DNA of 45,487 nt from contig JAUYBI010000008.1 of NCBI GenBank assembly GCA_030693145.1, positions 1-45,487 of the forward strand, in the 5' to 3' direction. Position 1 is the first letter of the stretch; the number at the start of each line of letters is the position of its first letter. Position numbers and translations under genes: made by a program. This DNA is from Candidatus Omnitrophota bacterium (GTDB taxonomy: Bacteria > Omnitrophota > Gorgyraeia > Gygaellales > Profunditerraquicolaceae). Under the pieces are notes generated by a model. That model was not told where the DNA came from, did not search any database, and saw only the letters and a program-made list of their open reading frames with translations. Below, in pieces: positions 1-13,057 of this stretch.

Positions 1-600
1 TTTTTCTGCAGGTCATTATGCAGGCCTAAATCCCCGGCCTTAATTATCTCTTGCATAAACTGCTCGTAGTTCGCCTGGCCCAATAAACCCAAAATTATAT
101 TTTTCTCTTCTTGCATAAATTCCTGCAAGGGCATCTCCTTATTTATATAGAGCGCATAACTGCTAAAGGAATAGTCCTTGGCGGAAAAAACCAAATTGAT
201 TTTTTGCGGATTAAGATGAATATAAGCGGTAAGCTTTAAAAGATAGGGGTCCTTTTCCACCAGGGCGGTTTTGAATCTATCCCTAAAGAGGTGCCCTTTT
301 CTGCCGTATTTTCCGTTAAAGTATTTAGTATAGGAAGAGTTAAGCCCATGCATAATCTCGGAGATGCCCCCTTTGAGGCTTTCCTGCTCCTGATCCGGCA
401 GTTCTAATAAAAGATGAAAATGGTTCGGCAGAAGCACATAGGCATATAACCTGAATTTATACTGTTCTTTGTATTTCTTGATTAATTCAAAATACGCGTT
501 GTAATCCGCCTCTTCCTTAAATATATCCTGATTATAAATGCAGCGGCTGGTTATGTAATAGAGCGCGTCTTCTAATGAAATTCTTGGCGGCCTTGGCATT
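1..600 (-). CDS. REP-associated tyrosine (Y1/HUH) transposase, RAYT/TnpA_REP family, truncated by window edge
   Basis: Minus-strand translation starts MPRPPRISLEDALYYITSRCIYNQDIF and contains PNHFHLLLELP (HUH motif) and YGRKGHLFRDRFK, typical of the family. Not in the ORF track because it runs off the window. Confidence 0.93.
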
Positions 601-670
601 TTTCTCACCTTCTTTACTGTTTATACCTGGCACTTCTCATTTGTGCCTGACACTTTTTTCTAACCTTACA

Positions 671-698
671 AAAAAACCAGCCTTTTTTCCTGGCTGGT
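671..698 (-). terminator. Intrinsic terminator / expression platform after the riboswitch
   Basis: Minus strand ACCAGCC-AGGAAAAAA-GGCTGGT followed by TTTTTTT. Confidence 0.85.
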
Positions 699-723
699 AT
701 TAGTTAGCTGCTTAAACCTTTTA

Positions 724-808
724 TTTCTAGCAACCTGCCAATCCTTAAACCTGGGATGCACGGCTTTGCGTCCCCCGATTTCTCGAGGTTTGCCCTTCGA
801 AACTTTTT
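724..808 (-). promoter_or_regulatory. Cyclic di-GMP-I (GEMM-I) riboswitch aptamer
   Basis: Minus strand GTTTCGAAGGGCAAACCTCGAGAAATCGGGGGACGCAAAGCC...GGCAGGTTGCTAGAAAT. Matches the GEMM-I hallmarks AGGGCAAACC and GGGACGCAAAGCC, and a P1-like GTTTC/GAAAT closes it. Confidence 0.9.
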
Positions 809-822
809 CTCTTGTTGACTAA

Positions 823-852
823 AATATAACATATTTAAAGGCGCTTTGTCAA
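823..852 (-). promoter_or_regulatory. Sigma70-type promoter for the riboswitch/RAYT transcript
   Basis: Minus strand TTGACA-N18-TATATT just upstream of the aptamer. Confidence 0.7.
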
Positions 853-12985: not shown

Positions 12986-13057
12986 TTTCAACAGTAGGGG
13001 AGGTTTAAACCTCCCCTACTGTAATTGATAAAAGTCCGTAGGGTTTATTATAATGTC
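12986..13057. repeat. GTTTAAAC-centred palindromic repeat, copy 4
   Basis: TTTCAACAGTAGGGGAGGTTTAAACCTCCCCTACTGTAATTGATAAAAGTCCGTAGGGTTTATTATAATGTC. Confidence 0.85.

Follow-up and report, generated by a model that had tools for sequence, protein, structure and literature searches.

The window analyzed here is the first 45 kb (45,487 nucleotides) of contig C28, starting at contig base 1, from a 1.8 Mb MAG whose nearest named relatives are Omnitrophota. On its minus strand, a gene for a SurA_N-like/cyclophilin peptidyl-prolyl isomerase (2528–1047, assigned by Pfam and in conserved synteny) is followed directly by a promoter, a c-di-GMP-I (GEMM-I) riboswitch aptamer, an intrinsic terminator, two palindromes and the start of a Y1_Tnp gene of the RAYT type. 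A preliminary description made from the letters had proposed the promoter, aptamer, terminator and RAYT start, and we found all four in place. The promoter TTGACA-N18-TATATT (852–823) has its −35 element TTGACA at 852–847 and, after an 18-nt spacer, its −10 element TATATT at 828–823. It matches the consensus at 11 of 12 positions, carries a TG ahead of the −10, and ranks first of five promoter-like sites in the region, where shuffled sequences give an expectation of 0.9. The RF01051 covariance model places the aptamer at 804–726 with 56.9 bits against a gathering score of 35 (E = 1.3e-8 for the window). The segment AGCAGCUAACUAAU (712–699) is complementary to the aptamer 3′ strand, with which it could form an alternative hairpin, and is paired in the minimum-energy fold. 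The terminator, ACCAGCC-AGGAAAAAA-GGCTGGT followed by a T-run, lies at 698–670; its 9-base loop falls outside the loop range of the sequence scan, and the hairpin is backed by its presence in the minimum-energy fold and its conservation in two congeners, G026 and G021. The hairpin and T-run also occur in the other leaders of the family that were examined. The ATG of the Y1 gene is at 599–597, downstream of the terminator.

The same cyclophilin gene (82–83% identity) is followed in G026 and G021 by the same leader and then by the RAYT (88–89% identity). The aptamer sequence is almost invariant among the three genomes, the AGCAGCTAACTAATACCAGCC segment, terminator and palindromes are near-unchanged, and AGCAGCUAACUAAU is identical. 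The −10 TATATT is kept in both congeners, where the −35 reads TTGGTA. By contrast, the three genomes differ in the spacer that precedes the promoter, where the window alone contains a repeat. This palindromic repeat, GTAGGGGAGGTTTAAACCTCCCCTAC (908–980, and again at 12994–13019), has about 100 copies in the genome (99 forward and 103 reverse matches of an 18-mer). Copies of it sit upstream of the riboswitch, in a stretch that is common to the genome's second riboswitch locus (L001) and missing from the congeners. At that second locus, a long CTGT tetranucleotide run separates the riboswitch from the following gene (L001:1375–1430).

Ligand and direction of switching

The aptamer resembles other RF01051 c-di-GMP-I riboswitches in its core GGGCAAAC/GACGCAAAGCC and in the intrinsic terminator that follows it, and differs from them in its target, here a domesticated Y1 protein heading a giant-ORF operon. 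The bases at the positions that we take to be equivalent to Vc2 G20, A47 and C92 are G, A and C, and the first of these agrees with the earlier reading of this aptamer. A GGGC to GAGC change in the core is associated with 3′,3′-cGAMP specificity. One related leader (L091:1233–1318) has GAGC at the base equated with G20, where the window keeps G. The c-di-GMP-I-GGC variant (RF03167) was considered for the window and rejected: it scores 52.5, under its cut-off of 59, and the window has A where the RF03167 family has G, so that its GACGCAAA lacks the discriminating G of the consensus GACGCGAA. For many of the related loci the E-values of RF03167 are better than those of RF01051. Across 25 aptamers, comprising the RAYT-linked group and two other riboswitches of the window's genome, standard pairs occupy 94.5% of pair cells, with a covariation score of 0.526 versus 0.223 for shuffled alignments. 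Changes on both sides occur in 16 of the 22 aptamer pairs, far above the shuffled and slid controls. Given the key bases, and because the genome encodes eight GGDEF proteins, c-di-GMP is a plausible ligand.

Family-wide, the 3′ strand of the aptamer pairs with the terminator region at a mean of −15.8 kcal/mol, compared with −11.1 kcal/mol for shuffled platforms. The strand's pairing is also stronger with the terminator of its own leader than with those of other leaders (1 of 20000 permutations), a test inflated by relatedness, as a control segment gives 31 of 20000. This complementarity suggests that c-di-GMP switches the operon off, because the 3′ strand, when held in the aptamer by the ligand, would no longer be available to pair with the terminator. 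The aptamer would thus sense c-di-GMP and control a transcription terminator ahead of the operon, with the ligand-bound form allowing the terminator to fold. In most leaders the terminator fold is already predicted to be more stable than the antiterminator (by 4.6 kcal/mol in the window, 1.3 in G021 and 0.0 in G026), so switching would have to be kinetic. The platform geometry of the window departs from the majority type, and the window's group has a geometry of its own.

Under the opposite polarity, c-di-GMP would block termination and turn the operon on, the behavior to be expected of genes for adhesins and attachment. With the terminator as the default fold of most leaders, the ligand might act by relieving termination, and in the minimum-energy fold of the window it is the aptamer that is disrupted while the terminator stands. 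Furthermore, c-di-GMP usually promotes surface adhesins. Against an ON switch, the pairing of the aptamer 3′ strand with the terminator region throughout the family implies that a ligand-stabilized aptamer should free the terminator. We regard induction by c-di-GMP as possible but doubtful, and favor the OFF switch.

The Y1 protein and its leader palindromes

The RAYT reading frame (599–3, minus strand) runs off at window base 3, because the window begins at contig base 1, and the gene is thus truncated by the contig end. Its product matches PF01797 with 47.5 bits (cut-off 23) and retains the motifs HFH and YIHLNP, so the RAYT hallmarks Y1_Tnp, HUH and Y---NP are all present. The preliminary description had spoken of a transposase under second-messenger control. 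That view has to be given up: the gene is present in single copy and encodes a domesticated Y1 protein anchored in the membrane, in relatives it stands at the head of a giant-ORF operon, and its nature was missed because the contig ends inside it. Full-length proteins have 421–422 residues in the congeners and about 310–440 among relatives, where the Y1 domain is followed by helices, a transmembrane helix at residues ~230–265 and mostly a C-terminal domain with a WETMQ motif; some members or clades have a coiled coil in place of this domain. The same C-terminal domain is found in a secreted-type protein encoded elsewhere in the window (3722–3090, minus strand), which is 42% identical over 106 residues to that of the G026 RAYT protein (E = 2e-23).

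For one member, L120, an AlphaFold model (pLDDT 88.7) has a Y1 fold followed by a long membrane helix and, at the C-terminus, a β-barrel. The best PDB match in a fold search with this model is 4er8 (TMt 0.78), a RAYT bound to a REP hairpin; a PDB sequence search using the protein alignment gave no match. From the cytoplasm outward, the predicted layout runs from a hairpin-binding Y1/HUH domain through a single membrane helix to an outer β-barrel, in place of which some clades have a coiled coil.

Within the protein, selective constraint is strongest on Y1. Its dN/dS is 0.039–0.048, compared with 0.065–0.096 for the neighboring cyclophilin gene and 0.14–0.20 for the C-terminal half, at a dS of about 1.1–1.8 where silent sites are near saturation. 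The set of catalytic HUH, Tyr and Asn residues is complete in 18 of 33 clade members and incomplete in the other 15. A mobile IS200/IS605 element was considered and rejected, as the other RAYTs of the genome are at most 38% identical to this one and the congeners share the locus. Very strong purifying selection on Y1, together with the loss of catalytic residues in many members, indicates at the sequence level that the gene is a domesticated RAYT and not a working mobile element. It shares with the RAYT/TnpA-REP class 2 Y1 HUH proteins the Y1_Tnp domain, HUH and Y---NP motifs, single-copy state, short gene-adjacent palindromes and the best fold match. It differs from them in the transmembrane helix, the outer β-barrel or coiled coil, the riboswitch leader, the lack of a REP population in the genome, and the incomplete catalytic residues in part of the clade. 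A paper on these proteins (PMC6006769) mentions neither membrane nor transmembrane in its text.

Between the terminator and the start codon lie two RAYT-type palindromes (655–624, minus strand), AAGTGTCAGGCAC at 655–643 and AAGTGCCAGGTA at 635–624, both conserved in G026 and G021. In the leaders of the family this interval contains GTGCCAGGCAC-like palindromes, replaced by GTACCACGTAC-like ones in one subclade. The motif density is 8.5 per kb in the 250 nt upstream of riboswitch-linked RAYTs versus 0.077 per kb elsewhere in those loci, a difference of about 100-fold. We rejected a dispersed REP/REPIN population as the source of the leader palindromes, since AAGTGYCWGGYA has only three copies in the genome, two of them inside this leader. 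Their number and placement are more suggestive of an operator than of a REP family. By analogy with the structure of a RAYT on its REP hairpin, the Y1 domain may bind these palindromes in the leader of its own gene, and such binding would provide autoregulation.

Alternatively, Y1 could be vestigial and have no function on nucleic acids, being retained only as the cytoplasmic portion of a membrane protein for assembling or anchoring the surface layer. The incomplete catalytic set in nearly half of the clade is what such a loss of function would leave behind. We consider it unlikely, as a vestige would hardly be the most constrained part of the protein, and 33 of 40 leaders still carry the palindromes, which are also kept where HUH has been lost.

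Linkage across Omnitrophota

Of the 20 best RAYT loci, 17 contain the aptamer according to the Rfam models alone, as do three of seven further loci. We then turned to 80 loci from a second, named collection, comprising 40 long RAYTs (the fusion form) and 40 short ones from Clostridium, Patescibacteria and others. Model R1 finds the aptamer upstream in 37 of 40 long-RAYT loci versus none of the 40 short ones, a count in which the assignment of one locus (L158) was settled by a separate comparison; R1 was partly built from these very loci, so greater weight lies with the Rfam result, which was obtained independently. Among the three exceptions, L149 and L157 have no aptamer and L146 has it after the gene. 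Every long protein with an ORF that covers the region (39 in total) has a transmembrane helix, and none of the 40 short ones does. The long, riboswitch-linked proteins form one clade, and the transmembrane label requires two changes on the tree versus 18.5 when shuffled. The 37 linked loci are one inherited association, not 37 independent events. The only other membrane-type row, L096, lies outside the clade and has no riboswitch.

Three of the bins are named otherwise (Planctomycetales, Ratteibacteria and Lokiarchaeota) and may be mislabeled or contaminated. The bin labeled Lokiarchaeota carries the riboswitch and RAYT unit on MBAA01000064.1 (L158), probably through a binning error.

The preliminary description had also raised the alternative that the RAYT is a mobile element newly inserted between the riboswitch and its real target, which we now regard as highly improbable: RAYTs do descend from IS200-like transposases, and other c-di-GMP-I riboswitches of this genome and its relatives do precede secreted and surface proteins, but two congeners keep aptamer, terminator and RAYT together at the same locus at a dS above 1, the linkage recurs across the phylum, and the RAYT is single-copy with no close relative in the genome. 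Comparison of the loci indicates that the link between riboswitch and RAYT is old and conserved, refuting a chance insertion. Y1 genes were found behind none of the 30 best-scoring riboswitches elsewhere, and the RAYT link is thus specific to one riboswitch sub-population.

The proposed operon and its giant ORFs

Upstream of the RAYT unit lie either genes of a secretin/ExeA-like system, which is the case in the window, or genes of glycan type. Downstream, in 21 neighborhoods, the gene after the RAYT is mostly of secreted type and about 130–165 aa long, and a giant ORF then follows in most. The RAYT stop overlaps the next start by an ATGA-type −4 overlap in 10 of the 21, suggesting that the RAYT is often translationally coupled to the small secreted protein. 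In both congeners and in most of the relatives examined, the giant ORF is found downstream of the RAYT and reads in the same direction. These secreted giants commonly exceed 3,000 aa, and three that were measured further have 4,442, 4,513 and at least 10,008 aa. Two giants that were scanned contain Laminin_G_3, Kelch and Reelin-type domains, with F5/8 type C matches that are weak and below the cut-off. A search of the window's own assembly with the N-terminus of the G021 giant found no giant ORF; as the contig ends inside the RAYT gene, we infer the remainder of the window's operon from the two congeners.

Taken together, we think it likely that this is a c-di-GMP-gated Omnitrophota operon for a giant surface protein, composed of the riboswitch leader, a domesticated membrane-anchored RAYT and a giant secreted ORF. 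Its first gene would supply the membrane-anchored Y1 protein, followed by the small secreted protein and then the giant one. A further-reaching idea is that an inner-membrane-tethered protein binding the hairpins of its own leader couples second-messenger level, envelope state and giant-protein synthesis, possibly by holding the giant mRNA at the membrane so that its product is secreted as it is translated; we consider this speculative and distinctly improbable.

Giant secreted ORFs with adhesion-type domains have been described in the same phylum (Seymour et al. 2023, PMC10066038), where the domains listed for Omnitrophia giant ORFs are of the kind carried by the two giants scanned here and riboswitches are nowhere mentioned. 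In contrast, a subset of such ORFs stands here behind a gene for a membrane-anchored Y1 protein with a conserved c-di-GMP-I leader. A full-text literature search, incomplete in coverage, returned no paper joining Omnitrophota with riboswitch, none joining REP-associated tyrosine transposase with riboswitch, and none joining c-di-GMP riboswitch, transposase and IS200. The riboswitch class and the RAYT family are already known; as far as could be checked, no description exists of the fusion, of its control by a riboswitch or of its position ahead of giant ORFs. The locus would be a case of a transposase-derived domain that has become a stable, membrane-anchored component and is controlled directly by an RNA responding to a second messenger. 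It offers a regulatory handle on a set of Omnitrophota giant surface ORFs and corrects the usual annotation of such genes as transposases.

Relatives carry up to 17 riboswitches per genome. As read from ORF starts, the top-scoring c-di-GMP-I riboswitches among them (L008–L037) precede GH1-like, filamentous-haemagglutinin-like, methyl-accepting and β-helix-like genes.
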